Both the position numbers and the translations under genes were made by a program. From positions 1-45,488 of the forward strand of contig CAKNFP010000006.1 of NCBI GenBank assembly GCA_930633525.1: DNA of 45,488 nucleotides. The letters are read 5' to 3'. Of the stretch, positions 496 through 41,888 are shown piece after piece (positions within the stretch are counted from its first letter, which is position 1; each line of letters starts with the position of its first letter). Source of the DNA: Hyphomicrobiales bacterium. Its GTDB lineage: Bacteria; Pseudomonadota; Alphaproteobacteria; Rhizobiales; Beijerinckiaceae. The notes below the pieces were generated by a model that saw only the letters and a program-made list of their open reading frames with translations, made no database searches and had not been told where the DNA came from.

Positions 496-1182
496 ATGAG
501 AGTGCGAATGCCCGTCATTGTCGTTGCGAACCCCAAGGGCGGCGCCGGGAAATCCACGGCTACGTTGGTGTTGGGGACCGTCCTTGCGGAGCAGGGGGCG
601 AGCGTCACGATCCTGGATTGCGACCCGAATCGCCCGATATCCTCATGGAAAAAGGGGGGCACGGCGAATGCTGTCGAAGTGCTCGATAGCGTGACCGAGA
701 GCAATGTCGTCTCGATCCTCGATGAGCACCGAACCAAGCGGCAGTTCGTTCTGGTCGACCTGGAGGGGACTGCTAGCCGGCTCACGTCGCGCGCCTTGTC
801 GCGCGCGCACTTGGTCATCGTGCCGTTGCAGGCGAGCGCCGTCGACACCGAGCAAGCGGCGAGGGCGGTCCAGCTGATCCGGGAGGAAGAACAGTCGTTC
901 GAGCGGTCCATCCCGTTCCGCGTGCTGTTTACACGGACATCGCCACAGATCCCGACCCGCCTCGAAAAGGCGATTTCATCCGAGTTGGCTGGGGCTGGCA
1001 TCCCATCGTTCTCGACGCATCTACACGAGCGCATGCCGTATCGGGCAATGTTCTATTACCGCCAGGACCTGACCGAACTGGACCCGGCCGAAGTCAACGG
1101 GCTGGTGCAGGCCAGAGAGAATGCGGCGCGGCTTGCCGGCGAACTGGTTGAGATTCTGACCGAGGGGAGGGCGGCAGCGTGA
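496..1182 (+). CDS. parA: ParA-family partition ATPase
   Basis: This 228-residue protein has a deviant Walker A motif KGGAGKST at residues 14-21, then CDPNRP and the acidic stretch VLVDLEG, as in ParA/MinD/VirC1 ATPases. The length fits the short ParA class that lacks the N-terminal DNA-binding domain. Such proteins bind DNA non-specifically in the ATP form and move plasmid copies through a small centromere-binding partner. That partner is probably the next gene, which overlaps by four bases (GTGA). The start is either ATG 496 or ATG 508; neither has a strong ribosome-binding site. Repeats at 310-371 lie directly upstream and probably form the regulatory or centromere region. Confidence 0.9.
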
Positions 1183-1469: not shown

Positions 1470-2129
1470 TCATAGATCTGCGTTGAGCGCGCGGCCGACC
1501 GAGACGTGTGAAATCTTGTGGCCCATGGCGCCGAGGTGCCGGGCGATTTCGCGCATGGAAGCGCCGCCCGCTCGCAGGGCGCGGGCCTCGCTCAATGCCG
1601 CCTGTTGGTCATCATCCGGGAGGAGGGCGCCATCGTCTCCGATGCGATAGCCGAAGGGCACGGATCCACCGAGGTAGCGCCCGCGCTGTTTCTGGTCGCG
1701 CTTCACGTCGGCGATGCGCTCGCGGATGCGGTCACGCTCTGCCTCTGCGACGGCAGCCAGGATCGTGAAGACGAGCTTGGCGATCCCGTTGCCGGTCACG
1801 TCACCGCCCAAGTCGATCATATGGACGCCGACCTCCTGGTCCCGCAGCAGCTCCATCATCCGGAGCGCGTCGACGGCCGAGCGGAACATGCGGTCCAGCT
1901 TCGGGGTAACGATCATGTCGCCCGCCTTCACCACCTCGAGCAGCGCGGCACCCTGGGGACGCTCCGCGAGGTAGGTGGAACCGGATATGCCGCGCTCGAT
2001 GAAAATATGGTCGACCTCGTGGCCGTGCATGGAAGCGTAAGAGCGCACCTGCCGTTCCTGGGTGGTGAGGCTCTGGCCCTCCTCCGCCTGGGCTGTCGTG
2101 CTGACGCGGATGTAGCCAAAAACCGCCAT
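1470..2129 (-). CDS. Serine recombinase (resolvase/invertase family)
   Basis: A 219-residue small serine recombinase. Residues 1-10 end in YIRVS with the nucleophile Ser10, followed by the conserved KLDR (77-80) and Arg83 of the catalytic pocket and the long helix AAVAEAERDRIRERI. The C-terminus (GGASMREIARHLGAMGHKISHVSVGRAL) is a helix-turn-helix that reads the recombination site. The length is typical of the resolvase group. It converges on the partition operon, with stops only a few bases apart. On a plasmid its likely task is resolving multimers, and a palindromic candidate site sits 19-41 bp upstream of its start. A role in inversion or as a transposon remnant is less likely because no transposase is nearby. 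Confidence 0.92.
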   Translation of the reverse strand: MAVFGYIRVSTTAQAEEGQSLTTQERQVRSYASMHGHEVDHIFIERGISGSTYLAERPQGAALLEVVKAGDMIVTPKLDRMFRSAVDALRMMELLRDQEVGVHMIDLGGDVTGNGIAKLVFTILAAVAEAERDRIRERIADVKRDQKQRGRYLGGSVPFGYRIGDDGALLPDDDQQAALSEARALRAGGASMREIARHLGAMGHKISHVSVGRALNADL

Positions 2130-3244: not shown

Positions 3245-3375
3245 CTGAAATCAGATAGGGACTTTCGTCTCCCGACAAAGGCGAATGTCCCATGGCTCTC
3301 AAAAGGAGTCAACGGGGGAATTGGCGTTTCTCCGATCGGTATGGCTTTGCCTGCGCGGCCCGGAGAAGGGCTGAT

Positions 3376-4143
3376 ATGTTCGCAGAAAGAATTGGTGCGG
3401 CCATTGATGGCGCGCGCACACTGACGCAACTTGACCACCTGTCGAAATCGATCTGGCAGGCGGTACTATCCGGGGCCGTTTCGGACGACGACGCGCAGCA
3501 CCTGGCGGAGCGCATCCATGCCAGTCGCGGCAAGACGCGCGCGGCCTATGTGCCGGTCGGCCTGCCACCTGGACGCCCGTCCATATTCCCACCGCGCAAA
3601 GCCCAGATCCCGACCGATCGGCAGAAGTCACGGTTGCGTCGCCGGCAACTCGCGGCTTCCGGGCCAATGCCGCCGCGCCTGGCCGCCATGTTCACCACAA
3701 GTGAGCTGTCCGCTATCAAAGTGATAGCAGATGAGGTGCGCGCCAAAGGGCACTGCGACCGCTCGATTGCGGAGATTGCCTCCCGCGCTGGTGTCGGCCG
3801 CACGACCGTGCAGAACGCTATTCGAATGGCAGCCCGCGAAGGCCTCGTGACGGTCCAGGAGCGGCGGCGGCAGGGGCAGAAGAACGAAACAAACATAGTC
3901 CGCGTCGTGTCAGCCGAATGGCGGGCTTGGCTGAGGACGAGGGCTGAGCGTCAATTGCGGCAGTCTGCCGCGATTGAAAGCCCGCAGACGACCACCTACC
4001 CAGAACAGCGGGCTATAGGGTTCAAAAACACGAACCCCACGGATATAAAAACAAAAACACGCTTAGCAGAAAACGAAGGCGAAGCAGCGGAGCTGTTGGG
4101 CTTCAATCCACAACCTATCATTTTCGGCAATGTGGAGAAGTAA
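3376..4143 (+). CDS. Winged-helix DNA-binding protein, plasmid type
   Basis: A basic protein of 255 residues from ATG 3376, which has GGAGAAGGG upstream. A longer form from ATG 3292 (283 residues) is possible but lacks a clear ribosome-binding site. The centre holds a helix-turn-helix (SIAEIASRAGVGRTTVQNA) followed by a basic wing (GLVTVQERRRQGQK), as in GntR-like and replication-protein winged helices. The N-terminal part is helical and the C-terminus polar. Related proteins occur on rhizobial plasmids and integrative elements. It could be a replication accessory factor or a regulator. The 27-bp palindrome at 3951-3977 lies inside its own coding sequence. Confidence 0.75.
   Translation: MFAERIGAAIDGARTLTQLDHLSKSIWQAVLSGAVSDDDAQHLAERIHASRGKTRAAYVPVGLPPGRPSIFPPRKAQIPTDRQKSRLRRRQLAASGPMPPRLAAMFTTSELSAIKVIADEVRAKGHCDRSIAEIASRAGVGRTTVQNAIRMAAREGLVTVQERRRQGQKNETNIVRVVSAEWRAWLRTRAERQLRQSAAIESPQTTTYPEQRAIGFKNTNPTDIKTKTRLAENEGEAAELLGFNPQPIIFGNVEK
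3951..3977. promoter_or_regulatory. 27-bp palindrome, copy B (inside a gene)
   Basis: TCAATTGCGGCAG (3951-3963) and CTGCCGCGATTGA (3965-3977) around a single T, with one mismatch. The left arm is identical to copy A at 282-294. It falls within the 3' part of the winged-helix gene, where it encodes roughly QLRQSAAIE. The match therefore survives in a coding and a non-coding setting, which argues for selection on the DNA site. Confidence 0.6.
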
Positions 4144-20125: not shown

Positions 20126-20610
20126 GACGGAAAGAAGCCGCGCAGATAGCACAGCAGAAAAAGGCTGATGCCTTTCTTGATGGGCTCCGGTCTGGCCTCT
20201 CTGTGTCTGGAGCCGCTTCCGCTGCCGGGATACCGAGGCGGACGGTTTACACGTGGCGCGATACGGATGACGCCTTTGCCGACGAATGGGACAAGGCTCT
20301 CGAAGAGGGCACGGATCTCATGGAGGACGAAGCGCTCCGCCGCGCTGTCACCGGTACGGATAAACCCGTGTTTCATGCGGGTCAGCAATGCGGAAAGATC
20401 CGGGAATATTCCGACACCCTCATGATCTTCATGCTGAAGGCTCGGCGCCCGGAGAAATATCGCGAGCGCGTCGACGTGAAGAGCAAGGCAGACGTGAATC
20501 TCACCGCATTCGAGAGCATGAGCGTCGATGAGCTGAGAGAGGAAGTCCGCCGGGGTGCGGCGCGTCTGGGGATCTCCCCGGAAGCTGCGGAGGAGGCCGG
20601 CAATGGCTGA
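20122..20610 (+). CDS. Terminase small-subunit-like protein
   Basis: TTG 20122 overlaps the previous stop (TTGA) and has GGAGG seven bases upstream, so this is preferred over an in-frame extension to 20014. The 162-residue product has an N-terminal helix-turn-helix (GLSVSGAASAAGIPRRTVYTWRD), a long acidic helix (EWDKALEEGTDLMEDEALRRAV) and the ending DTLMIFMLKARRPEKYRERVDV. That ending is typical of small terminase proteins that recognise packaging sites. The large terminase subunit is not in this window, so packaging function cannot be complete here. Confidence 0.75.
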   Translation: MRRKEAAQIAQQKKADAFLDGLRSGLSVSGAASAAGIPRRTVYTWRDTDDAFADEWDKALEEGTDLMEDEALRRAVTGTDKPVFHAGQQCGKIREYSDTLMIFMLKARRPEKYRERVDVKSKADVNLTAFESMSVDELREEVRRGAARLGISPEAAEEAGNG

Positions 20611-20842: not shown

Positions 20843-21608
20843 AACGACGCACACCCCCACGCCCGGCCTTTTCAGGCGCCTGAAGCAAGCCTTCCGCCGG
20901 CCAAATGACGCGCCATCGACGGTCGCCGAAAGTAACGCGGCTCGCCTGCTGGACTATGGCGCGAAACCCGATTTCCCCGGGTTCCTTCATCCCAAGGAGG
21001 TGGAAGGAACGGGCCCGGCCGAGCCAGTCGCGGATGGTGGACATTCTGCCCCTGATCCGCTCCCGCGCGTGCCTCGGCGGGAGGCCGAAAAGGTCGCGCC
21101 TGTGGCTCCAGTTCGCCCGGCTTCGATACCGGTTCGGATCGCCACGCCGGAGGACGAGGAAGGCGTCATGGAGCTATGCCGGTTGATGCACGCTGAGACG
21201 GCATTCTTCGCGCTGGATGAGAATCTTGTCCGGGAAATGATGCGGCCAAGCCTGCGCCAGGAGGGCGGCGTCGTCTGCGTCATTGGCGAACCGGGCAAGC
21301 TGGGGGCGATAATCAATCTCACCTTCCAGTCGCACTGGTACTCGCATGAGATGTTTCTGACAGACCGCATGACGTTCGTGCACCCAGACCATCGCAATAG
21401 CGACCACATCACGCGGCTGATCCAGTACGCCAAGACACTCGCGGATCTGAGCGGGTGCGCGCTCCTGCTGGGTATCACCTCTAGCAAGCGGACAGAGGCC
21501 AAGGTCCGCCTCCTGCGTCGAGAACTGGGCGAACCTGTCGGCGCGCTGTTCTTTTACGACGCTCGCCCCCGTGCTGAGGTAGTGGCGCCCCCGGCGCAGG
21601 CTGCTTAG
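20835..21608 (+). CDS. GNAT-family acetyltransferase, phage-associated
   Basis: The 257-residue product has a disordered Pro-rich N-terminal 95 residues followed by a GNAT domain: PVRIATPEDEEGVMELCRLMH as strand 1 and helix 1, the central strands (VVCVIGEPGKLGAIINL), the strand VHPDHRNSDHITRLIQYAK carrying the acetyl-CoA-binding turn (normally R/Q-x-x-G/A, here degenerate), and LLLGITSSKRTEAKVRLLRRELG. GNATs of this kind often lie next to virion genes of short-tailed alphaproteobacterial phages. The substrate is unknown. It converges on the minus-strand gene at 21605 with a 4-base overlap of ends. Confidence 0.75.
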   Translation: MSETTHTPTPGLFRRLKQAFRRPNDAPSTVAESNAARLLDYGAKPDFPGFLHPKEVEGTGPAEPVADGGHSAPDPLPRVPRREAEKVAPVAPVRPASIPVRIATPEDEEGVMELCRLMHAETAFFALDENLVREMMRPSLRQEGGVVCVIGEPGKLGAIINLTFQSHWYSHEMFLTDRMTFVHPDHRNSDHITRLIQYAKTLADLSGCALLLGITSSKRTEAKVRLLRRELGEPVGALFFYDARPRAEVVAPPAQAA

Positions 21609-21883
21609 TTCGCGGCGACGGAAGGTGGCGGCGTCAAGAGCGCGATCTGCTGGTTGAGCTGGTCCCGTAGGATGATGGCGGTTGGTAGATCGAGGCGAAG
21701 TCTGGCCGCGACCACGCGGTCAGGATCGACAGTTCCGTCCAGTTGCGGCGTGAACCTCGCCACCCCAAGCGTAACGTTCACCACTCCGTTGAACACGCCG
21801 ATGCCCATGACCTCATTCGCAAAAGTGACCTGCACGTTGTGAGGGTCAGTGATCGGATACTGGGCCGGCTTCGCATCGGACAT
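21605..21883 (-). CDS. Conserved small protein, paralogue of 25794-26066
   Basis: A 92-residue product with the pattern YPITDPHNVQVTFANEV, GIGVFNGVVNVTLGVARFTP and RLRLDLPTAIILRDQL. It shares most of these positions with the plus-strand gene at 25794. The fold appears to be beta strands with one C-terminal helix, and the family is unknown to me. Stops of this gene and the GNAT overlap head-on, so it lies at a module edge. The ATG at 21883 has TGGAGTTCACTC upstream on its strand. Confidence 0.65.
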   Translation of the reverse strand: MSDAKPAQYPITDPHNVQVTFANEVMGIGVFNGVVNVTLGVARFTPQLDGTVDPDRVVAARLRLDLPTAIILRDQLNQQIALLTPPPSVAAN

Positions 21884-25793: not shown

Positions 25794-26066
25794 ATGAGCA
25801 CTGAAATCCCGCTCGAATTTCCTATTACCGATCCCTATAACGTGCCCGTGACATTCGCGAGCGAGCTGCTTGGGATCGGATCCTTCAACGGCGTCGTGAA
25901 TGTCACCTTGGGTGCCGCGCGGTTCACTCCCAGCATGTCCGGCGTCGTCGATGCGGACCGGGTGATCGTCTCCCGGCTCCGGCTCGATCTGGTCACGGCA
26001 ACTGCATTGCGCGATGCCCTGACCGAGCACATTGAACGGATGGGCGGCGGATCGAGCTCAGCCTAG
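25794..26066 (+). CDS. Conserved small protein, paralogue of 21605-21883
   Basis: ATG 25794 has GGGGG upstream. The 90-residue product shares the pattern FPITDPYNVPVTFASEL, GIGSFNGVVNVTLGAARFTP and RLRLDLVTATALRDAL with the minus-strand gene at 21605. Family unknown to me. The two copies lie at opposite ends of the toxin-antitoxin cluster in opposite orientations. Confidence 0.68.
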   Translation: MSTEIPLEFPITDPYNVPVTFASELLGIGSFNGVVNVTLGAARFTPSMSGVVDADRVIVSRLRLDLVTATALRDALTEHIERMGGGSSSA

Positions 26067-27808: not shown

Positions 27809-28531
27809 GTGACGAACGGTAGCCACGGAATGACCCTTCACCAGATAATCTTGAATGAGATCGAGGGCCGGATCGTGTCCGGGGAATGGCCCCCAGGGTT
27901 CCGTCTGCCGTTCGAGGTTCACTTGGCAGAGCATTACGGGTGCTCGCGAATGACCGTCAATAAGGTCATGACGCAGCTTGCAAAGGGCGGCTTGATCGAA
28001 CGCCACCGCAAGGCCGGCAGTTTCGTGACCCGGCCCCGCGCGCAATCGGCCGCGCTGGAGCTCCACGATATCGAGACTGAGGTGAAGTCACTCGGTCTGG
28101 CCTATAGCTATACTCTCCTCGTCCGCAAGGCGCGGCAATCCAATGCGGAAGACCGACGCTTGATGGAGTTGAGGGAAGCGATGCCGGTCATCGAGCTGCT
28201 GGCCATGCATCGTGCGGGTGAAAAGCCGTTCTGCGTGGAGGAGCGCCGCATCAACGCCGGTATTGTACCCGAGGCAATGGATGCGGATTTCACCGTAAAT
28301 GCGCCCGGTGGTTGGCTGATTGCACAGGTGCCGTGGAGCGCGGCAGAGAATCGGATACAGGCGATGCCCGCATCAGCCAAGATCGCGCGCCTGCTGGAGC
28401 GCTCTAGGGGCACGGCCTGTCTGGTGGTCGAGCGCCACACCTGGAACTCCACGGGGCCTGTTACCTTCGTACGCCTTACTTACGCGGGAGACAGCCACGC
28501 GCTGATTGCGCGCTTCGAGCCGTCTTCATGA
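27809..28531 (+). CDS. GntR-family (HutC/UTRA type) regulator
   Basis: The start is GTG 27809 or ATG 27830; neither ribosome-binding site is decisive. Up to 240 residues. The N-terminus is a GntR winged helix (GRIVSGEWPPGFRLPFEVHLAEHYGCSRMTVNKVMTQLAKGGLIERHRKAGSFV) and the C-terminal two thirds a UTRA ligand-binding domain of the HutC group (FCVEERRINAGIVPEAMDADF and ACLVVERHTWNSTGPVTFVRL are typical). Members are usually repressors released by the substrate or a catabolite. Here the likely targets are its own gene, the binding-protein gene 108 bp downstream and the lyase operon at 37029. Candidate operators are listed at 28535 and 37115. Confidence 0.9.
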   Translation: MTNGSHGMTLHQIILNEIEGRIVSGEWPPGFRLPFEVHLAEHYGCSRMTVNKVMTQLAKGGLIERHRKAGSFVTRPRAQSAALELHDIETEVKSLGLAYSYTLLVRKARQSNAEDRRLMELREAMPVIELLAMHRAGEKPFCVEERRINAGIVPEAMDADFTVNAPGGWLIAQVPWSAAENRIQAMPASAKIARLLERSRGTACLVVERHTWNSTGPVTFVRLTYAGDSHALIARFEPSS

Positions 28532-28534
28532 CGG

Positions 28535-28546
28535 TAGATATATCTA
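28535..28546. promoter_or_regulatory. TAGATA/TATCTA palindrome before the binding-protein gene
   Basis: A perfect 12-bp palindrome between the GntR stop and the solute-binding-protein start. Short AT-rich palindromes of this type are typical HutC-group operators. GTATATAC occurs at the matching place upstream of the lyase operon. Confidence 0.45.
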
Positions 28547-28639
28547 GACATAATAACCGGATTGGGTATCGTTTGAAGTGGCCCCGTCAACGGTGCCGCG
28601 CTTCAGGCAACATGTTGCTCAAAAAAAGGGGAGGAGACT

Positions 28640-30250
28640 ATGAAACTAGAACAGGTCTGGCGCAGGAGGGTAATTGTCGCCCTTGGCTCTGTGATACTCG
28701 CGCTTGGTTTCGGCACAGCGCATGCACAGGAGGCCAAGCCGCGTAGCGGTGGAGGGATGATCGTTGGCGTTAGCGCTGATCCAGGCGTCCTCAACGCCTC
28801 AATCAGCGCCAACCTCGTCGAGAAGACCATCTCGAGCAACGTGTTCAGCATGCTGATCCGGCTTGACAAGAAGTTCGCCCCGGTGCCGGATCTGGCTGAA
28901 AGCTGGGAGATTTCCGAGGACGGTCTCACCTATACTTTCCACCTGCGCGAGGGCGTGAAGTGGCACGACGGCAAGCCATTCACCTCCGAGGACGTCAAGT
29001 TCACGATCGACGAGGTCATCCTGCCATTCCACAGCCGCGGCGCGACCTATAAGGCGGTGATCGACGCCGTCGAAACGCCGGACGCTAAGACGGTCGTCAT
29101 CAAGCTGAAGAATTCCTTCGGCCCGCTGATGAACGCTCTCGGGTACGATTTCTTCATCCTCCCTAAGCACCTCTACGCCGGTACGGACATCAAGAACAAT
29201 CCGTATAATGCGAAGCCCGTCGGTACTGGTCCGTTCAAGTTCGTCAAGTGGGAAAAGGGTTCGCACGTCGCGCTCGAGCGCAATCCGGACTTCTACCTGC
29301 AGGGCAAGCCGTATCTTGATCGGCTGGTCTTCCAGACGATCCCCGACGCCGCGAGCCGCGTGCTGGCGCTGGAGTCCGGTGACATCGACTATCTGTCCTA
29401 CCAGTCCGTTCCTTCCTCGGCGGTGCCGCGCCTGAAGAAGAACGCTAACCTAGTCACCACTATTGAAGGGTTCGAGTCTCTCGCCTCGATCGGCATGCTG
29501 TCGATCAACGTCGAAAGCCCGATCCTGAAGGACGTGCGCGTGCGCAAGGCTCTGGCCTACGCCATGGACAAGAAGTTCATCGCCGAGCGCGCGGATTATT
29601 CTATCGGCAAGCCTGCGACCGGACCTATCGCATCCACGAGCTGGGCGTACAACACGAATGTCGAACTCTACGCGCACGACCCGAAGAAGGCTGCGGCGCT
29701 GCTCGACGAGGCCGGTTATCCCGTTAAAGCCGACGGCACGCGCTTCAAGCTGCGACTCATCGCCGATGGGGGCGTCGAGTTCCACCGCAAGGCGGCGGAA
29801 ATCCTCAAGGAGCAGTTCGCGCAGGTTGGAATCAATCTCGAACTGGAGCTTCTCGAGCGCAACGTCATGCTCGATCGTGTCTACGCCAAGCGCGACTTCG
29901 ACACGCAGATCCACATTTTCTCGACTGGAGCGGACCCGGCGATCGACGTCTCGCGGCTCTATGTCTCCTCCAACATCCGGCCGGTGAACTTCACCAATGC
30001 TTCCGGTTACCGGAACGAAACCGTCGACAAGTTGTTCGCCGAGGGCCAGAGTGCGTTCAAGGCTGAGGATCGAGCCAAAGCCTACCACGAGGCGCAGAAG
30101 ATCCTAGTAGACGAGCTTCCGGCGATCTGGCTGGAGGAAGTGGGCATTGTTGGCGTTTGGAACAAGAAGTTCCACGGCCTGCACGACTGGAGCGCCTATT
30201 CCTACTACACCTTCTGGGACGTTTGGACCGACGACGGCAAGAAGCAGTAG
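28640..30250 (+). CDS. Family-5 solute-binding protein of a peptide-type ABC importer
   Basis: ATG 28640 with GGGGAGGAG upstream. The 536-residue precursor has a signal peptide (VIVALGSVILALGFGTAHA, cleaved before QE), so the protein is periplasmic. The rest is a family-5 binding protein: MIVGVSADPGVLNASI, LAESWEISEDGLTYTFHLREGVKWHDGKP (family signature), PVGTGPFKFVKWEKG, DVRVRKALAYAMDKK, KKAAALLDEAGYPVK. Family members bind oligopeptides, but also opines, nickel complexes and aminopolycarboxylates. It stands apart from its transporter genes and converges on them, with a shared terminator between. Confidence 0.92.
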   Translation: MKLEQVWRRRVIVALGSVILALGFGTAHAQEAKPRSGGGMIVGVSADPGVLNASISANLVEKTISSNVFSMLIRLDKKFAPVPDLAESWEISEDGLTYTFHLREGVKWHDGKPFTSEDVKFTIDEVILPFHSRGATYKAVIDAVETPDAKTVVIKLKNSFGPLMNALGYDFFILPKHLYAGTDIKNNPYNAKPVGTGPFKFVKWEKGSHVALERNPDFYLQGKPYLDRLVFQTIPDAASRVLALESGDIDYLSYQSVPSSAVPRLKKNANLVTTIEGFESLASIGMLSINVESPILKDVRVRKALAYAMDKKFIAERADYSIGKPATGPIASTSWAYNTNVELYAHDPKKAAALLDEAGYPVKADGTRFKLRLIADGGVEFHRKAAEILKEQFAQVGINLELELLERNVMLDRVYAKRDFDTQIHIFSTGADPAIDVSRLYVSSNIRPVNFTNASGYRNETVDKLFAEGQSAFKAEDRAKAYHEAQKILVDELPAIWLEEVGIVGVWNKKFHGLHDWSAYSYYTFWDVWTDDGKKQ

Positions 30251-30273
30251 GACTGCTCTTGCCGACTAGGAAG

Positions 30274-30303
30274 GCGGCGACAGTTTCTTGTCGCCGCTTT
30301 TTT
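30274..30303 (+). terminator. Strong intrinsic terminator after the binding-protein gene
   Basis: GCGGCGACA (30274-30282) and TGTCGCCGC (30289-30297) pair perfectly with a 6-base loop and six T follow. On the other strand the stem is preceded by A residues, so it may also help stop the convergent operon. Confidence 0.9.
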
Positions 30304-30350
30304 GCGCGCACTCTCAATCGGTGTTCCACTCTGTGGCGCCGAACCGATGC

Positions 30351-31682
30351 TCAGACGTGAACTGCCCCTCGGATCATCTCGATCAGATCGGCGCTGTCCG
30401 CCCGCTCCCCGAGCGCGGCGAGACGCGCCTCGAGTCTGCCGGCATCCGCCCCGAGGTGATCGCGGCAGAGCACCGAGAGCCGCTCCATCACTTCATCCCC
30501 TTCCAGGCTGCGTAGGGGTTCGTTGCTCAGCGCTGTGGCGCCGTCGCTCCATGAAACATGGACATGGGCCATGCGTGGCCGCAGCGAAGGGTTCGAGATG
30601 CATTCGATCCTCGGATACCAGCCGACGACCTCCGGATCCCTCAGCCACTCGATCGGCAGCAGGACGTTCTCCGGATCACGGCCGGCGAGAAGCAGGGCGA
30701 TAGCGAAGACGACACTGAATTTTGCCTGCAACTGGTCGGCCGGATCGCGGATGCCCACGAGGTGGGCCGTCGGCGGATAGATCTCGACGCGCACCGAGGC
30801 GATGTCGCTAGTGGACCGTCCCGACGTGGCGAGGACATGCTGCATGCCCTCCAGCGGCTCGAAGCAGCCGAGGCAGAAAGGATAGCGCTTGTAGATGTTG
30901 CGCAGGATCGCCCAGCGCTCGCCAAGACCATCGGTGAGGGTGGTCTGCATCGCCGCGTCGTCGAACAGCTTCTCGTGCGGATAAGCGGCGTCCTGCCGGG
31001 CGAGCGCGGCGAGGAAACCCTTGGGGCCTTCGATTGCCTTGCTCGCCCCCTTCACGCCGAGCGCGGCCAGCTTCGCCGCCCGAACACCGCGCTCGGCGGC
31101 GAAACCGGAATGCAGGTGCTTGACCATGATGGCCGTGTTGTTGATGTCCTCCCACAGCCCGCCGGCCATGGTCGCGGCGAGGCCGATGGCGCTTGCAGTC
31201 TGCGCAGCGTCGAGACCATACGCGATGCTCGCTGCGACAGCCGAGGCTACCGTCCCGCAGGTGGCCGTAGATTGATGATAGTGATAGTGCCGCTCGCCGG
31301 CGGCGATGCTCAGGCGGATCGCGACCTCGTAGCCCACCGCCACCGCCGCAAGCAATCGCCCGTCGCTCGCAGAGACGCCCGACGCGGCCGCGAGGGCAGC
31401 GGCGACGACCACGGAGCCCGGGTGCATGGAGGTGTCGCGATGAACGTCATCGATCTCGTAGACGGTAGACAATGTCCCGAGTTGAAGCGCGAGAGCCTCT
31501 TCGTTCGTCGCGCCCCGGTAGCGCTTCAGCACCAGAGCGGTCTCGCTGTGCGTCCCATACAGAGCAGCGTGGAGGTGATCGCCGACGCACAGTCGCGCCC
31601 GATCGGCGACATCGATCGGCAAAGGGTTAACGGCAGCCGAACATGCGAAGTCTGCAAGACGCGACGAAATCGTTTCGATCAT
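30351..31682 (-). CDS. MmgE/PrpD family protein (candidate iminodisuccinate-type epimerase)
   Basis: The 443-residue protein has the MmgE/PrpD pattern: the N-terminal helix-rich domain with GTLSTVYEIDDVHRDTSMHPGSVVVAAALA, VGYEVAIRL, GLAATMAGGLWED, MVKHLHSGFAAERGVRAAKLAALG, then the smaller domain (YKRYPFCLGCFEPLEG, VEIYPPTAHLVGI, LQAKFSVVFAIALLLAG). Family members include 2-methylcitrate dehydratase, cis-aconitate decarboxylase and the iminodisuccinate epimerase of Agrobacterium tumefaciens BY6, about the same length. Last gene of the lyase-transporter operon, three bases after the ATPase stop. In this context an epimerase acting on an N-substituted aspartate is the most economical guess; dehydratase activity is the alternative. 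Confidence 0.9.
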   Translation of the reverse strand: MIETISSRLADFACSAAVNPLPIDVADRARLCVGDHLHAALYGTHSETALVLKRYRGATNEEALALQLGTLSTVYEIDDVHRDTSMHPGSVVVAAALAAASGVSASDGRLLAAVAVGYEVAIRLSIAAGERHYHYHQSTATCGTVASAVAASIAYGLDAAQTASAIGLAATMAGGLWEDINNTAIMVKHLHSGFAAERGVRAAKLAALGVKGASKAIEGPKGFLAALARQDAAYPHEKLFDDAAMQTTLTDGLGERWAILRNIYKRYPFCLGCFEPLEGMQHVLATSGRSTSDIASVRVEIYPPTAHLVGIRDPADQLQAKFSVVFAIALLLAGRDPENVLLPIEWLRDPEVVGWYPRIECISNPSLRPRMAHVHVSWSDGATALSNEPLRSLEGDEVMERLSVLCRDHLGADAGRLEARLAALGERADSADLIEMIRGAVHV

Positions 31683-31685
31683 GGG

Positions 31686-33695
31686 TCAGTAAAGATGGCA
31701 GGCCACATGGTGGCCGGGCTGCTGTTCGCGCCATTCCGGCATTTGAACACGGCAGGTTGGGAGTGCCTTTGGACAACGCGCGTGCAGATAGCATCCTGAT
31801 GGTAGCTTCAGGGGGGAGGGAGGCTCGCCGTTCATCAGTATGCGCTCGCGTGTGCGCGCCTTCTGCGGGTCCGGCAATGGAACCGATGAGACCAGCATCT
31901 GCGTGTAGGGCTGCAACGGCGCGGCCACGCCGAGCCTGGCGGGGGCGACCTCGAACAGTCGGCCAAGATACATAACGCCCATGCGGTCGGCGACCGTGCT
32001 GACGACGGCAAGGTCATGGGTGATCAGCAAGATCGTGAGGCCCATTTCTTTGCGTAATTCTTGCAGCAACCCAAGAATTTGAGCGCGAGTCGACATGTCG
32101 AGCGAGGAAACCGGCTCGTCAGCCACCAATACCTTAGGCTCCGCGGCCAGAGCCCTCGCCAGAACGACGCGTTGTCGCTGACCGCCCGATAACTCGTGCG
32201 GATGACGACCCATAAATTCCCGCGCCGGCGTAAGGCCGATCAGTTCTAGCAGTGAGATCGACCGCGCTTCGACCTCATCGCGGCTGCAGATCTTGTAGTT
32301 CAGCAAAGGCTGCGCGAGCGCGTGCCGTATCGTCTTACGCGGGTTGAGGGACGAATAGGGATCCTGGAACACCATCTGTGCGAGCGGCCTATCGCCGTTC
32401 GCCAGCCGCTCAGCAGGGTTCTGATTCCCGATGACGATGCGTCCGTCGCTGACCATTTCCAATCCTGCGACGAGCCGGCCAAGCGTCGACTTACCGCTCC
32501 CGCTTTCGCCAACAAGAGCGAATATCTCGCCCGGCTCGAGCACCAGCGAGACGGTGTTGAGCGCATGCACCGTCGCGTTGCCGCCGAACGCGCCGCCGCG
32601 GGCTGGGAAGTGCTTCTTGGCCGCTTCGATGGTGATGCTGGCCGCGGTGCTGCCATCCTTGCCGATGCGCATCGCGGAGAAGCGGCTCGCGCGGTGCGGC
32701 AGCGCACCTACTTCCACCGCAGGGCTCGCACCATCGCCGCCCGGGTGATAACAGCGGATCTGGCCGGCGGCCGTTGTTTCGAGAGGCGGTACGGTGGCCT
32801 CGCACTCCGCAGTCCTACGCGGACACCGCACCGCGAAGCGGCAGCCCGGGGGCGGCGTGCGGAGATTGGGCACTTCTCCGCCAATGGTGCGGAGGTCGCC
32901 AGCCTCCCCCACCGGGATCACGCATTCGATTAGCCCTTTGGTATAGGGATGCTGCGGATTGGCGAATATCTCCTCGACCGTGTTCTGCTCGACGAGTTGG
33001 CCCGCATACATCACGTAGACCCGATCGGCGAGCTCCGCCACCAGGCCAAAGTCATGCGTCACGAAGATCATGCCGCATCGCGTATGCTTCTGGATAGCCC
33101 GGATGAGATCGACGATTTGTGCCTGGATGGTCACGTCGAGCGCGGTCGTCGGTTCGTCGAGGATCAGGAGCTTCGGCCGTCGCGCAATCGCCATGGCGAT
33201 CAGGATGCGCTGGCGCATGCCGCCGGAAAGCTGGTGCGGGTAGGAGCGGATCACGCGCAGCGGATCGCCGATGCCGAGATCACCCAACAAAGTCGTGATC
33301 CGTTCTTTCACAGCCGGGTCACGCTCGAACCTGACGTGGCCATTGAAGGCCTCGCATATCTGCGCACCCACCGTAAGCAGCGGATTCAGATAGGTCATCG
33401 GGTCCTGGAAGACATAACCAACGGACGTTCCGCACAGTGCTCGCTGCTGCTCGGGCGAGAGCGTGTCGAGGTCTTTTCCATCGAAGACGATGCGGCCTTC
33501 CGTGCGCCGCCCCGGAGGCGGCAGCAGGTTGAAAAGTGACCGGACCGTTACCGATTTGCCGCAGCCGGATTCACCAACGATGCAGATGATTTCACCTGCC
33601 TCGACCCTCAAGTCGACACCTTCGACGGCGCGGGTTTTCTTGCCGTCGCCTAGCGGGAAGTCGACCGCCAGTCCTTGTACCTGGAGCAGGCTCAT
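31686..33695 (-). CDS. Fused double ABC ATPase (DppD-DppF type)
   Basis: ATG 33695 overlaps the permease stop (ATGA) and gives 669 residues. Two complete ABC domains are present: GESGCGKS 41-48, LSGGM 156-160, LILDEP 177-182; and GESGSGKS 396-403, LSGGQ 502-506, VADEP 524-528. Each is followed by the oligopeptide-type C-terminal region ([16 protein letters not shown] and [11 protein letters not shown] in the first; [15 protein letters not shown] and [10 protein letters not shown] in the second) with Cys residues. It replaces the separate DppD and DppF subunits, as GsiA does, and powers import by the two adjacent permeases. Upstream in-frame residues to 33809 belong to the permease gene region and are not used. 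Confidence 0.93.
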
Positions 33696-34525
33696 CTTGC
33701 GCTGCCTTTCTGACGCGGATCGAGCACGTCGTTGAGCCCGTCGCCCAATAGATTGAAGCCGAGTGTCGTCACCAAGATGGCAAGGCCCGGAAAGACGGCC
33801 ATCCACCACGCTTGGTTCAGGAAAGGCTGCGCGGCGAACAGGAGCTGCCCCCAGCTTACCTGATCGGGGTCACCGAGGCCGAGGAAGCTGAGGCTGGCTT
33901 CGGTTAGGATTGCACTGGCAATCTGCAACGAGGCCGTGACGATCACCGGCGGCAGCGCGTTCGGCAGGATTTCCGAAAAAATCAGGGCTCCCCGGGAGGC
34001 CCCCGCCAACCGGGCTGCGACGACGAAGTCTTGCCCGCGCAGCTTGAGGAATTCGGCTCTCACGATGCGCGCCGTATCGGACCAACTCAGGATACCGATG
34101 ACTAATACGATTTTAGTGAGCGAGGGACCGAAGAGCGCCACGATCAGGATGGCGAGGAAAAACTGCGGCACGACTTGGAATGCCTCGGCGACGCGCATAA
34201 AGAGTTCGTCGATCCTGCCGCCTACGAAGCCGGATATAGCACCGACGATGATGCCGATGACGGAGGCGAAGGCGGCAGCCGCAAAGCCTACGAGCAGAGA
34301 GACACGCGCACCGTGCGCCATACGCACGAACATGTCGCGGCCGAGATCATCGGTACCAAGGAGGCAGGCAGCGCTAGGCGGGCAAAAAGCCTCGGCACCG
34401 ATGTGGGTCGGAGAGCCTGTCAGCATCGGCCCGAGGATGCCAATCAGGGTCGCCAGGAGGACAAGGGTAAAGCCAACCGTTCCGGAGCGGCTGCGAAACA
34501 GGCGGTACCAGTTTTGAGCAATCAT
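33692..34525 (-). CDS. ABC permease, DppC/OppC type
   Basis: The 277-residue inner-membrane protein starts MIAQNWYRLFRSRSGTVGFTLVLLATL. It contains the periplasmic LLGTDDLGRDMFVRMAHGARVSLLVG signature of DppC-type permeases and the EAA loop VVAARLAGASRGALIFSEILPNALPPVI that contacts the ATPase. About six membrane helices. It lies 12 bases after the DppB-type gene and overlaps the ATPase gene as ATGA. Confidence 0.92.
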   Translation of the reverse strand: MIAQNWYRLFRSRSGTVGFTLVLLATLIGILGPMLTGSPTHIGAEAFCPPSAACLLGTDDLGRDMFVRMAHGARVSLLVGFAAAAFASVIGIIVGAISGFVGGRIDELFMRVAEAFQVVPQFFLAILIVALFGPSLTKIVLVIGILSWSDTARIVRAEFLKLRGQDFVVAARLAGASRGALIFSEILPNALPPVIVTASLQIASAILTEASLSFLGLGDPDQVSWGQLLFAAQPFLNQAWWMAVFPGLAILVTTLGFNLLGDGLNDVLDPRQKGSAR

Positions 34526-34537
34526 GATCCGGCTTTC

Positions 34538-35524
34538 TCAAGTGTAGCGGATGCGCGGATCGACGATGGCGTACAGGATATCCGTGATCAGATTGATGAG
34601 GATGACCACGATCGACGTCACCAGAATGATGCCAATAATAAGCGGGTAGTCGCGGGCGAGCACTCCGTCGTAGAGAAGGCGCCCCATACCCGGCCACGCG
34701 AACACCACCTCAACGAGCACTGATCCGGTCAGCATTGTGCCGATGTTCATGCCAATGATGGTAATGACCGGCAGGAGTGCGTTCGGCAACGCATGTCTGT
34801 AGAGCACAACCGGCTCCCTCACTCCCTTCGCGCGGGCAGTGGTCATGTAGTCGAGCCGCATCACCTGCATCATGCTGGCGCGTGTCATGCGGGTGGCGAG
34901 CGCGATGAAACGCATGCCCAGCGCCAACCCCGGCAAGATAAGGTGCATGCCGATGTCGAAAATCCGGCCAAAACCTTCTGCGGGAGCTCTAAGATTAAGC
35001 ATACCCTGCGTTGGCAGCCAACCGAGCTTGAGCGCAAACACGATCACTAGCAACTGGCCGAGCCAGAAGACCGGAACGGACCAGCCGAACAGTGCAAGGC
35101 CGGTTAAGCTGAGGTCTCCAACTGAATTGGGTGAGCGGGCCGCGATAACGCCGAGCAGAATGCCCAGGCCGATGAACAGCACCATCGTTGGAACCATCAG
35201 TATCATGGTAGCAGGGATGCGATCCAGGATGAGCTCGAGGACGGGCTCCCGATACCGGTAGGAAGCCCCCAAATCGCCTTGGAAGATCTTGCTGACATAG
35301 ATTGCGTATTGCTGGATCAGCGGCTTGTCGAGGCCGTATTCCCGGCGCAGTTCGGCAAGCTGCTCAGTGCCCATATCGGCATCGCCGGTAATGAAGCTGA
35401 GTGGGTCCCCAGGGGCGTTATGCACTAGGACGAAAACGACGGTCACTAAGGCGAAGATTGTCGGTATCGCGAACATCACGCGACGGCCGACGAACGCGAA
35501 GAACGGATTGATCCCGGGCCTCAT
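34538..35524 (-). CDS. ABC permease, DppB/OppB type
   Basis: The start is ATG 35524, with a G-run ten bases upstream. GTG 35533 overlaps the lyase stop as GTGA but has almost no spacing to the G-run. About 328 residues: first helix RRVMFAIPTIFALVTVVFVLVH, the family motif GDPLSFITGD and LRREYGLDKPLIQQY, FQGDLGASYRYREPV, six membrane helices and the EAA loop YMTTARAKGVREPVVLYRHALPNALLPVI. It pairs with the DppC-type subunit to form the channel. Confidence 0.92.
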   Translation of the reverse strand: MRPGINPFFAFVGRRVMFAIPTIFALVTVVFVLVHNAPGDPLSFITGDADMGTEQLAELRREYGLDKPLIQQYAIYVSKIFQGDLGASYRYREPVLELILDRIPATMILMVPTMVLFIGLGILLGVIAARSPNSVGDLSLTGLALFGWSVPVFWLGQLLVIVFALKLGWLPTQGMLNLRAPAEGFGRIFDIGMHLILPGLALGMRFIALATRMTRASMMQVMRLDYMTTARAKGVREPVVLYRHALPNALLPVITIIGMNIGTMLTGSVLVEVVFAWPGMGRLLYDGVLARDYPLIIGIILVTSIVVILINLITDILYAIVDPRIRYT

Positions 35525-35529
35525 CCGCT

Positions 35530-37029
35530 TCACGCCCCCACAATGGCGTCGATCGTATCTTCCAGCCGGCGGGCGCCCGAGGCCTGAGCCTTTTCGATCG
35601 CTTCGCTGCGGCTGCGGTCCAGCGCGATCCGTTCACGCGCCGCTTCTATCTGAGCAGCCACCTGTTCAGGTCCGGGGGAACCGACGATTCGCTCGCGATT
35701 GTGGAGCGATTGCAGGGGATCGATGGAGCCGCGGATATCTTCTTGCGTCACTGACAGTGCACGGCCGATGAGTCGGTCGGAAATCCTGTCTATATCAGCC
35801 GGAGTGATGTCGTCGGGCGCTTTGCCAGCATCGACAGATTCCCGTACTAGATGGGCGACGATCTGGTGTGCGTCGCGCCAGGGAATATGCGTCTTAAGCA
35901 TGAGCATTGCGGCAATGTCGGCCGCTTGGGTCCAACCATGGCCTGCCAGCGCCGCGAGTCGTTCGACGTTTACCGTCATAGTGGTGGTCATACCGTGAAG
36001 CATGGCCAGCATATCCTCGACCTCGTCCATGGCCTCGTAAAGCTGCCACGGACCCATCAGCGTATCTTCGAGCCCATCGGATTCGGCCTTGAGCAAGGTG
36101 AAAACACCGGACAGGCGGCCGATAGCTAGCGAAGCCTGCCCCCTGATCCAGGCCAGCGCCCAGGAGTTCTTCTTCTGGGGCATAATGCTGCTGGTGCTAC
36201 AATAGCTGTCGTGAAGCTCGAGGTATTTGAACTCTGTCGTGGTCCAGAGATAGAGGTCGTTAGCTACGCTCAGCGCATTGGAAATGCAGATCGCGATGAT
36301 GCTGTGTGCATGCAGGAGTGTGTCGAGATTGACCACCGCGTCGCGCGTGTTGCTCTGGACCTTGTCGAATCCCAGAAGCTCCGCGGTCCGCTGCCGCGAG
36401 ATCGGAAACGGCGAGCCGGTCATGATGCCGGAACCGGTAGGGCTTTCCCCAGCTTCTACGTAAAGCTCGCAGGCGCGCTCGGCGTCGCGGGCGAACATCG
36501 CCTCCCACGACATGAGCATGTGGCCGAACGAGGTGCACTGTGCATGCTGGCCGATGCTGTAGCAGGGCATGATCGTCAGAATGTGCCGCTCCGCGACATC
36601 GACGAGACCGCTGCGCAGATCGTTGAGGTGTGAAAGCAGGGAAGGAAGCCTGCGGCGCAGGTTGAAGCGCCAAGACATCGCGTCCAGGTCGCCGGAGGAC
36701 CGCCCGACATTGATCCAGCCGGCAAACTCCGCGCCGATGCTTTCCGTGAGATACGCTTCGCCGGAATGGCGGCCGCCGCCCATCCGATCGCGGACGACAT
36801 CGATCCCCTCTGCTTCCATGCGGCGCAGTCCGGATAGGATCGCGCGTGCGACGTCCGGCTTGATGAGGCCGGCCTCGAACAGCGCGATAGTGTGCGCCTT
36901 GTCGAAGGAATGGAACGCCGTATAGCTGCGCCGCAGATTGCTGATCGGCCCGGGATAGAAACGCTTCTGCAAAAGCGAATCGACTTGACCCGTCAGTCGA
37001 GCCCCAACCTGCCGCACAATGTCCGCCAT
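35530..37029 (-). CDS. Argininosuccinate-lyase-like C-N lyase (candidate IDS/EDDS-type lyase)
   Basis: ATG 37029 is preceded by GGGGAGGTAGG; an in-frame extension to 37152 has no such site. The 499-residue protein belongs to the aspartase/fumarase superfamily: GRSSGDLDAMSWRF near 109-122, YSIGQHAQCTSFGH (157-170), and the signature SSIMPQKKN (280-288) with catalytic Ser281. It departs from true ArgH in several conserved stretches (GRSSGD for GRSRND; Q-H-A-Q-C for Q-x-A-Q-P) and carries a C-terminal extension of about 40 residues. It heads an operon with an importer and an MmgE/PrpD protein, unlike arginine biosynthesis. It should release fumarate from an N-substituted aspartate. EDDS lyase and iminodisuccinate lyase are the closest functional models. 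Confidence 0.88.
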   Translation of the reverse strand: MADIVRQVGARLTGQVDSLLQKRFYPGPISNLRRSYTAFHSFDKAHTIALFEAGLIKPDVARAILSGLRRMEAEGIDVVRDRMGGGRHSGEAYLTESIGAEFAGWINVGRSSGDLDAMSWRFNLRRRLPSLLSHLNDLRSGLVDVAERHILTIMPCYSIGQHAQCTSFGHMLMSWEAMFARDAERACELYVEAGESPTGSGIMTGSPFPISRQRTAELLGFDKVQSNTRDAVVNLDTLLHAHSIIAICISNALSVANDLYLWTTTEFKYLELHDSYCSTSSIMPQKKNSWALAWIRGQASLAIGRLSGVFTLLKAESDGLEDTLMGPWQLYEAMDEVEDMLAMLHGMTTTMTVNVERLAALAGHGWTQAADIAAMLMLKTHIPWRDAHQIVAHLVRESVDAGKAPDDITPADIDRISDRLIGRALSVTQEDIRGSIDPLQSLHNRERIVGSPGPEQVAAQIEAARERIALDRSRSEAIEKAQASGARRLEDTIDAIVGA

Positions 37030-37114
37030 TCCTACCTCCCCAATGCAGTCTGTCGACCACCGGCTCATCAATCGGCGCGGCGAAAGCCAAGCCTGCGAGC
37101 TCTTATCCCTATAA

Positions 37115-37122
37115 GTATATAC
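37115..37122. promoter_or_regulatory. GTATATAC palindrome upstream of the lyase operon
   Basis: A perfect 8-bp palindrome, 86 bp before the lyase start, in an A/T-rich promoter-like stretch. Similar sites are bound by HutC-type regulators; compare the palindrome at 28535-28546. Confidence 0.4.
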
Positions 37123-37201
37123 ATGACAGGAGCGCGAATCGCCGTCAAGCACGTTACGCTTGGAGAGCCGATTGTGTGCTTTCGCTGAGTGCCGCGGGCT
37201 A

Positions 37202-40679: not shown

Positions 40680-41888
40680 TTAATGCCGCCGGCCGTGCCG
40701 CTGCTTCCAGCCCTCCCCTGCGCCGGGGTAGGTCTTGGGGGCGTGCTTGGCAGCGATGAGGTGGGTCAGCTTGTCAGCGGGGCGGATGGTTTCGGACAAG
40801 TTGTCCGAAACTGCCGGATCAGAAACGACCGCAAGCGGTGCCGACGCTGCAGGAGTGTCGAAGCCTGCTGGGTTCGGCGCGTTGTAGACGGGGCGTTGCC
40901 CCGCTTTCCAAAGTGCCGCCGTATCTCGGATCATGAAGGCAATAGTGCGATGTTCCGCCAAGCCTTCGGCAATCAATTCTGCCAGCTTCTCCGTGTCCCC
41001 ATCGAACCGCTCAACGATTAGGGTGATGGCTTCCTGCAGCGCCTGGAACCTTTGAACCTTGCGCGCCACGGCTTCCGCTGGGGGTTCGCACTCATCGATC
41101 AGGTCAATGATGCCATGCCCGTCCGCCGGGGTTGGGCCTGCGCAGTTTTGCGCAGGGGCTGATGGCTGCCGCGCCGTCACCTTCTCGCCTGCTGCTGCCC
41201 GGTCGATGATCGGCTTGCGCTCCTCGGGGCTCAATTTGGCGAGCGCGTCCAGCTCAACGCCTTTATCCAGCGACGTGCCGGTGATGCGGTCTGCATCGGC
41301 CTTCAGGGCCTCTCCGCGCGCGGCATCGCGGCGGATAGTTCGCTCGTCACGGCCCGTAGCCTTGGCGGTCTGGGCGGTGAAAGAAACAGCGGACAAATTG
41401 TCCGTTGTTTTACCTCTCCCCGGACCACCTCGTTCGGTGACGTGCCTCGTCTCAGGATGCAGGGCCTCGTAAATCTCTTTGCGGCGGCTGGTCTGCCAGG
41501 ATACCTGCATCGGGGTCAGCTCTGCCCGGCACAGGTTCTCGTCGATCATTGCCAGCTCGGCGTGCAATTCGTCGTCAGTGGCGACAACGCAGGGCACTGA
41601 CACGAGTGCCAATTCGCGCGCGGCCTCATATCGATGCCGCCCGGCTACTATCTCCCAACCATCCACCTGCCTGCCGCTCTCTGTGATCTGGGCGGATCTC
41701 ACACGCAGCGGGTTGATGATGCCAAGCTCCCGGATGCTAGCTGCGAGGGCCTGGACGATGCCCTTGTTGACAGATCGGCCGTCGAGACGGGGCCGCATCT
41801 TCGCTAGCGGCAGCTGGACCAGATCCATTGCCGTTTTGACGGGGGAGACGCTGCCAGTCTCGGCAGCGGTCGATACGCTTCCTTCCAT
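40680..41888 (-). CDS. ParB-domain (ParB/Srx-like) protein
   Basis: The 402-residue product starts with a ParB N-terminal domain: MDLVQLPLAKMRPRLDGR, IVQALAASIRELGIINPLRV and the hallmark VAGRHRYEAAREL (81-93), followed by DENLCRAELTPMQVSWQ. The central part KATGRDERTIRRDAARGEAL is a helix-turn-helix-like segment found in ParB-like proteins of phages and plasmids. The C-terminal 150 residues are helical and low in complexity. It may bind specific DNA on this replicon or act as a ParB-like nuclease. The real partner of the ParA at 496 is more probably the small gene next to it. Two parS-like palindromes lie inside this gene. Confidence 0.82.
   Translation of the reverse strand: MEGSVSTAAETGSVSPVKTAMDLVQLPLAKMRPRLDGRSVNKGIVQALAASIRELGIINPLRVRSAQITESGRQVDGWEIVAGRHRYEAARELALVSVPCVVATDDELHAELAMIDENLCRAELTPMQVSWQTSRRKEIYEALHPETRHVTERGGPGRGKTTDNLSAVSFTAQTAKATGRDERTIRRDAARGEALKADADRITGTSLDKGVELDALAKLSPEERKPIIDRAAAGEKVTARQPSAPAQNCAGPTPADGHGIIDLIDECEPPAEAVARKVQRFQALQEAITLIVERFDGDTEKLAELIAEGLAEHRTIAFMIRDTAALWKAGQRPVYNAPNPAGFDTPAASAPLAVVSDPAVSDNLSETIRPADKLTHLIAAKHAPKTYPGAGEGWKQRHGRRH
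40789..40811. promoter_or_regulatory. 23-bp perfect palindrome inside the ParB-like gene (parS-like)
   Basis: GTTTCGGACAA (40789-40799) and TTGTCCGAAAC (40801-40811) pair perfectly around one G. The core CGGACAA-n-TTGTCCG recurs at 41390-41404 in the same gene. Both encode Asp-Asn-Leu-Ser with the otherwise less common Leu codon TTG. Confidence 0.55.
41390..41404. promoter_or_regulatory. Second CGGACAA-n-TTGTCCG palindrome
   Basis: Perfect 7-base arms around one A, about 600 bp from the first copy, both within the ParB-like gene. Partly explained by the coded residues TDNLS, but the arms extend beyond those codons in copy 1. Confidence 0.5.

Follow-up and report, generated by a model that had tools for sequence, protein, structure and literature searches.

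A candidate operon for the uptake, epimerisation and cleavage of a substituted dicarboxylate on a phage-plasmid-like replicon of a Hyphomicrobiales bacterium

What would a bacterium import and break down with a peptide-type ABC transporter, a lyase resembling argininosuccinate lyase (ArgH) and a protein of the MmgE/PrpD family, encoded beside a HutC-type regulator? This question is raised by a seven-gene locus of a Hyphomicrobiales bacterium (Beijerinckiaceae; GenBank assembly GCA_930633525.1). The window analysed here is the whole of contig CAKNFP010000006.1 (C6; 45,488 bases), part of a six-contig, 7.16-Mb assembly (G000). The favoured reading, held with a probability of about one half, is an inducible catabolic operon that takes up a small molecule with several charges, corrects its stereochemistry by epimerisation and splits it by beta-elimination; the molecule is most likely an aspartate or 3-methylaspartate with a substituent on nitrogen. 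A preliminary description of the locus had proposed import, epimerisation and cleavage of compounds of the iminodisuccinate (IDS) or ethylenediamine disuccinate (EDDS) type. This class of function is the best supported; the specific naming of IDS or EDDS is not.

All seven protein families are borne out by Pfam, and every gene listed previously was recovered at the coordinates it had been given (Table 1). The regulator and binding-protein genes, on the plus strand, converge on a five-gene minus-strand operon that starts at 37029 and runs in the order lyase, DppB, DppC, fused DppD-DppF and MmgE/PrpD. Its spacing is as tight as had been described, with a 4-nt overlap, a 12-nt gap, a 4-nt overlap and a 3-nt gap in that order. 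Pfam finds no hut enzymes among the seven genes. Matching gene sets occur in genome G949 (L095) and in Bosea sp. BK604 (L113), and therefore chance assembly of the locus is excluded. Among the matches listed, the best PDB match of the binding protein is the oligopeptide-binding AppA. In the ethylenediaminetetraacetate (EDTA) importer of Chelativorans sp. BNC1, EppA is likewise described as a peptide-type binding protein, with four cationic contacts, that works with an ABC transporter for an aminopolycarboxylate (PMC7312458). An EppA-like identity for the window protein was considered and rejected, as EppA does not appear in the best 60 of its 109 PDB matches.

The lyase shares superfamily, fold and the SSIMPQKKN motif with ArgH. 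However, it has SG for RN and NSW for NPD, belongs to a separate clade and is encoded in a catabolic-looking operon; the altered motifs had been recognised correctly at the outset. The S-G pair occupies positions R112-N113 of ArgH and EDDS lyase (SSGD instead of SRND). RN is present in all 22 ArgH rows and in 79 of the 80 loci from genome_contigs (mostly ArgH), while the window lyase and its close relatives have SG (45 of 47, with the region missing from the remaining two). These 80 loci are the best from a scan with the pattern IMPQKKN, which is common to both groups; the scan therefore returned mainly ArgH and served as outgroup only. The lyase tree includes 25 such loci, and 21 of these group with ArgH; the 22-row ArgH table omits one of the 21 (L009), and all 80 were checked for RN. 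Grouping with true ArgH, which the preliminary description had named as evidence against its proposal, did not occur: in a quick tree, a 50-row clade including the window lyase is split from 39 rows with ArgH by a branch with a Shimodaira-Hasegawa-like approximate likelihood-ratio (SH-aLRT) support of 100.

With EDDS lyase of Chelativorans sp. BNC1, the window lyase shares superfamily, fold and Ser281 (30.6% identity over 464 residues). Counted from the ATG at 37029, a start that homologs back in an alignment of 22, the SSIMPQKKN serine is Ser281, so the numbering put forward earlier is correct; as a number it is unremarkable, since the same serine occurs in 22 of 22 ArgH rows examined. Six residues of EDDS lyase are described as substrate-proximal, namely R112, N113, Q159, N288, D290 and Y320 (PMC12363623). 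Only N288 is retained in the window lyase, whereas R112 is replaced by Ser, N113 by Gly, Q159 by Ile, D290 by Trp and Y320 by Leu; the change of Asp290 to Trp is seen in 47 of 47 close relatives. EDDS lyase itself falls across the fully supported branch, among ArgH-side rows, on a long branch (1.91) whose placement the program flagged as unsure. Judged by sequence, the lyase (structure model with a predicted local distance difference test score, pLDDT, of 84.8) is neither ArgH nor EDDS lyase, and its branch of this well-known family is apparently without characterised members.

This has consequences for annotation. Public records for members of the clade carry the name argininosuccinate lyase. 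The NCBIfam argH model TIGR00838 gives the window lyase 288.8 bits, narrowly over the cut-off of 279.5, and pipelines therefore label it ArgH. On four close relatives the same model gives 271.3, 234.0, 286.2 and 278.1 bits, so that P0033 passes while P0004, P0029 and P0041 fail. Because the model straddles its cut-off on close members, the public annotation of SSGD-clade lyases is, by this measure, unreliable. Among the papers searched, none joins mmge, argininosuccinate lyase and operon, and none of the titles and abstract beginnings returned for IDS with lyase, or for the superfamily with coenzyme M, evidently describes the clade. An ergothionase-type trimethylamine lyase, suggested by the HutC-type regulator, the conserved Trp residues and an MttB gene in G949, was also considered; it was dropped, as no entry named ergothionase occurs in the best 60 of 71 PDB matches of a lyase-clade profile (A1). 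A paralogue of the lyase is encoded on the second contig of the same genome (G000:C2:103936-105402).

Few genomes encode such a lyase. Matches with E 1e-90 or better were found in 3/397 genomes of the order, 1/398 of a phylum sample, 6/385 of the class and 7/298 of the family, counts that include the window's own genome, and in 4/67 genomes of the genus Bosea, 1/2 of the order of G949 and 1/4 of the order of G924. A close lyase is present in one of the 67 Bosea-genus genomes, and among the genomes searched a close copy occurs only in G949 and Bosea sp. BK604 (G1276). G949 has the same five-gene order as the window (lyase-DppB-DppC-DppDF-MmgE). Bosea has lyase-DppB-DppC-MmgE, lacking an ATPase gene at the DppC-MmgE junction, followed by a HutC-type gene (49.8% identical) and a binding-protein gene (70% identical).

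Pairing of lyase and MmgE/PrpD extends further. In the 14 genomes searched for PF03972, five of nine clade loci have an MmgE/PrpD gene no more than 5 kb from the lyase (about 0.12 expected), versus none of six other lyase loci. The five are the window, G949, G1276, G924 and G294; the four clade loci without a partner are G000:C2, G1106, G1139 and G801. Here G949, G1106 and G1139 were put in the clade, and G1363 outside it, by alignment score and identity, none being a tree row, and the Bosea-genus places G1375 and G1407 were left out of both counts. For close lyases on contigs of at least 9 kb, an MmgE relative is on the same contig in 10 of 22 cases and a binding-protein relative in 11 of 22; all three occur together on seven contigs, one of them from Devosia faecipullorum. 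These same-contig calls are circumstantial, being drawn from equal contig sizes among 47/120 listed lyases, 68/120 MmgE proteins and 37/120 binding proteins. P0025 and P0129, for example, share a size of 1886 bases, under the 9-kb limit, and cannot be one contig because both genes do not fit.

The MmgE/PrpD protein is the candidate epimerase of the pair. In Agrobacterium tumefaciens BY6, an IDS epimerase is described as acting with a C-N lyase (PMC7347537). IDS epimerase is the nearest fold to the model of the window protein, although Foldseek puts IRG1 nearly level. In a quick tree with long branches and a weak backbone, 24 near rows, the window protein included, form one clade at 100, while IDS epimerase falls in another set at 96; identity between the two proteins is 22-24%. 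The kinship with IDS epimerase proposed earlier therefore stands for the fold, but not for the clade or for Arg97, which is replaced by Ser. Identity with a methylcitrate dehydratase, which would have spoken against that kinship, did not emerge: the protein has no NCBIfam match, and 2-methylcitrate dehydratase (PrpD/MmgE) is not its closest fold.

Regulation of the operon is also suggested by sequence. The regulator scores 272.5 bits against the HutC model TIGR02018 (cut-off 220), and six HutC-type places in the genome exceed this cut-off, the regulator at 27809 included, so that it is likely a specialised HutC paralogue. The HutC operator is described as TGTA-N2-TACA (PMC12977541). The candidate operator ahead of the lyase gene contains the right end of the locus as first delimited (37122), and the corresponding Bosea promoter has an exact palindrome, TGTATATACA. 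The looser pattern GTNTANAC occurs five times in the whole window, with 2.2 expected, so that the case for an operator rests on position and conservation. The candidate operator ahead of the binding-protein gene appears weaker. A stretch resembling it also precedes the Bosea binding-protein gene when compared by eye.

Neighbouring genes in other genomes offer clues to the substrate. In G924 (L097/L105, G924:C178), a methylaspartate ammonia-lyase (TIGR01502, 458 bits against a cut-off of 286; 410.8 bits to a solved enzyme) heads a one-direction cluster that continues with a binding protein, MmgE/PrpD, DppB, C, D and F and, last, an SSGD-clade lyase (37% identical). On Variovorax plasmid NZ_LR594669.1 (L100), an aspartate/glutamate racemase gene adjoins the lyase on the other strand, and an MmgE/PrpD gene lies 3.1 kb downstream. 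Both arrangements speak for a skeleton of the aspartate type whose stereochemistry is corrected. Natural N-substituted aspartates described so far include toxin A, aspergillomarasmines and lycomarasmine (PMC10792612).

Gene content and order, protein families, predicted folds, the clade, the recurrent pair and the operator-like site are read from sequence or models. From these we infer how the operon is regulated, which way the transporter works, what the epimerase does, that an amine and no other group is eliminated, and what the substrate is. The HutC-type repressor would silence the operon via a TGTA-N2-TACA-type operator until an inducer arrives. The substrate, most likely a C4 or C5 dicarboxylate that carries an amine or amino acid, would be captured by the family-5 binding protein and imported through DppB, DppC and the fused DppD-DppF ATPase. 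The MmgE/PrpD protein would invert a carboxyl-bearing stereocentre, which would make more isomers usable, and the lyase, with Ser281 as base, would beta-eliminate the amine to leave fumarate (or mesaconate) and an amine or amino acid. These products may then feed central metabolism.

Several observations weigh against this reading. Five of the six EDDS-lyase contacts are altered. Members of the MmgE/PrpD family also dehydrate and decarboxylate. Arg97 of IDS epimerase, which aligns with R100 of bsIRG1, is Ser not only in the window protein but in 23 of 23 near relatives. Of the proposed bases of IDS epimerase, His99 and Tyr145 (PMC7347537), the former is retained (H87), yet all 42 other family rows have it too, so it does not discriminate, and the latter aligns with Y133 in one alignment and is gapped in another, though Tyr133 adjoins. 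In G924, G294 and Variovorax, the partner of the lyase is a distant MmgE/PrpD protein outside the clade of the window protein (26-30% identity for G924 and G294); this suggests that the pairing has several origins and was not inherited as a single unit. The methylaspartate ammonia-lyase is found at one locus alone. In G949 (L095 1-12000, L104, G949:C136), no HutC operator was seen in the upstream sequence inspected ahead of the lyase, and genes for MttB, a dimethylglycine-dehydrogenase-like oxidase and an M24 peptidase lie directly upstream in the same direction; these may point to an N-methylated substrate or belong to a neighbouring unit. Sister-group lyases lie near ureohydrolase genes, of the arginase family in G294 (L093, G294:C28; the locus also has an amidohydrolase gene) and annotated as agmatinase in Variovorax, which suggests guanidino-type substrates at these two loci. 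As neighbour genes differ among G924, Variovorax, G949 and G294, the clade probably covers several substrates.

Other explanations account for parts of these data. It is improbable that the operon degrades the synthetic chelators IDS or EDDS themselves by epimerase and C-N lyase, given the single EDDS contact kept and the position of IDS epimerase and, less surely, EDDS lyase outside the respective clades. In addition, close lyase relatives extend down to about 51% identity across many contigs (among the matches listed), suggesting a natural substrate that predates these chelators. Very improbable indeed is a misplaced arginine-biosynthesis ArgH that happens to adjoin a peptide importer: the lyase does pass TIGR00838, but the fully supported split, the SSGD motif and the failure of three relatives under the same model argue otherwise, and the genome already carries a separate ArgH of its own (580 bits).

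More serious doubts concern the chemistry of the two enzymes. The MmgE/PrpD protein might be a hydratase, dehydratase or decarboxylase, acting for instance on an unsaturated acid released by the lyase. Characterised relatives include 2-methylcitrate dehydratase and cis-aconitate decarboxylase, and by sequence Bacillus subtilis IRG1 outranks IDS epimerase as the top PDB match (98.6 and 79.8 bits). We consider this unlikely, although it is the more credible of the alternatives, as fumarate requires no such step, IDS epimerase comes first by fold and no NCBIfam model matches. Less likely still is a lyase that expels a thiol (as S-(2-succino) lyase, 2SL, does), a quaternary amine or phosphate instead of a primary or secondary amine. 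The enzyme 2SL, which belongs to lyase class I, is described as setting fumarate free from a substituted succinate and as being encoded in a locus with an importer (PMC9706529). The substitution of Trp for Asp290 and the MttB and dimethylglycine-dehydrogenase-like genes in G949 would fit such a leaving group, as would the second NCBIfam match of the lyase, XcbC of coenzyme M synthesis (252 bits). However, the XcbC cut-off of 575 is far off, MttB occurs at one locus alone, the acetyltransferase and deacetylase that partner 2SL, likened here by its description, are absent from the seven genes, and the ammonia-lyase of G924 indicates nitrogen.

The contig that carries the operon is probably a 45.5-kb circle, as a 159-residue frame runs across its joined ends; no exact terminal overlap above 10 bases was seen there. 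The preliminary description had placed the locus on a mobile replicon. Partition and phage structural genes on the probably circular contig (Table 1) agree with this. A repeat search of 20000-41000, with 20 direct families inspected out of at least 60, revealed no clear ends of a mobile element flanking the operon. Among the replicon proteins scanned, none was recognised as a capsid, portal or large terminase protein, and megablast of bases 1-22000 against plasmid records gave no match. By gene content, the operon looks like the cargo of a phage-plasmid-like element. Two small genes of this replicon (21605-21883 and 25794-26066) are alike in their first 40 residues (PITDPxNVxVTFAxExxGIGxFNGVVNVTLG), an apparent duplication.

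Table 1. Features of the locus and of the replicon that carries it (positions in the window)
Feature	Position	Strand	Basis or remark
HutC-type GntR/UTRA repressor	27809..28531	+	TIGR02018; alternative start may be 27830
AT-rich candidate operator, TAGATATATCTA palindrome running into TAGACAT, ahead of binding-protein gene	28535..28551	.	By eye and inverted-repeat scan
Family-5 solute-binding protein	28640..30250	+	SBP_bac_5, 325 bits (Pfam)
Intrinsic-terminator-like hairpin and T run, 3' of binding-protein gene, between convergent units	30274..30303	+	By eye
MmgE/PrpD-family protein, candidate epimerase	30351..31682	-	
Fused DppD-DppF ATPase, peptide-type ABC importer	31686..33695	-	Two ABC_tran and two oligo_HPY stretches (Pfam)
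DppC-type permease	33692..34525	-	BPD_transp_1, 107.9 bits (Pfam)
DppB-type permease	34538..35533	-	BPD_transp_1 and BPD_transp_1_N (Pfam)
Argininosuccinate-lyase superfamily lyase, HSGE/SSGD clade, Ser281, Trp290	35530..37029	-	Lyase_1, ASL_C2, tree, residue tables
Candidate HutC operator TGTATATACT	37114..37123	-	TGTA-N2-TACA with one change, ahead of lyase gene
ParA	508-1182		
Resolvase	1470-2129		
Replication-initiation-like protein	3292-4143		
Virion/tail-lysozyme protein, 1583 residues	11177-15928		
Terminase small subunit	20203-20610		
ParB-domain protein	40680-41888		

More tentatively, the HSGE/SSGD clade may be an undescribed lyase family with an MmgE/PrpD epimerase as partner, directed at natural substituted dicarboxylates and carried here as cargo on a phage-plasmid-like replicon. 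Its substrates could include aminopolycarboxylates made by fungi, such as those related to toxin A or aspergillomarasmine, or compounds with a bulky or quaternary leaving group held against Trp290. Public records give members of the clade the name argininosuccinate lyase, although 45 of the 47 close relatives have replacements at two active-site positions that are constant in all 22 ArgH rows examined. EDDS lyase is described as already in use for making aminopolycarboxylic acids, and the clade, if the favoured reading is true, would add new C-N lyases whose pocket has been remodelled. If the lyase and epimerase recur as a pair with their own importer and operator, a natural route for N-substituted aspartates would likewise become open to testing.
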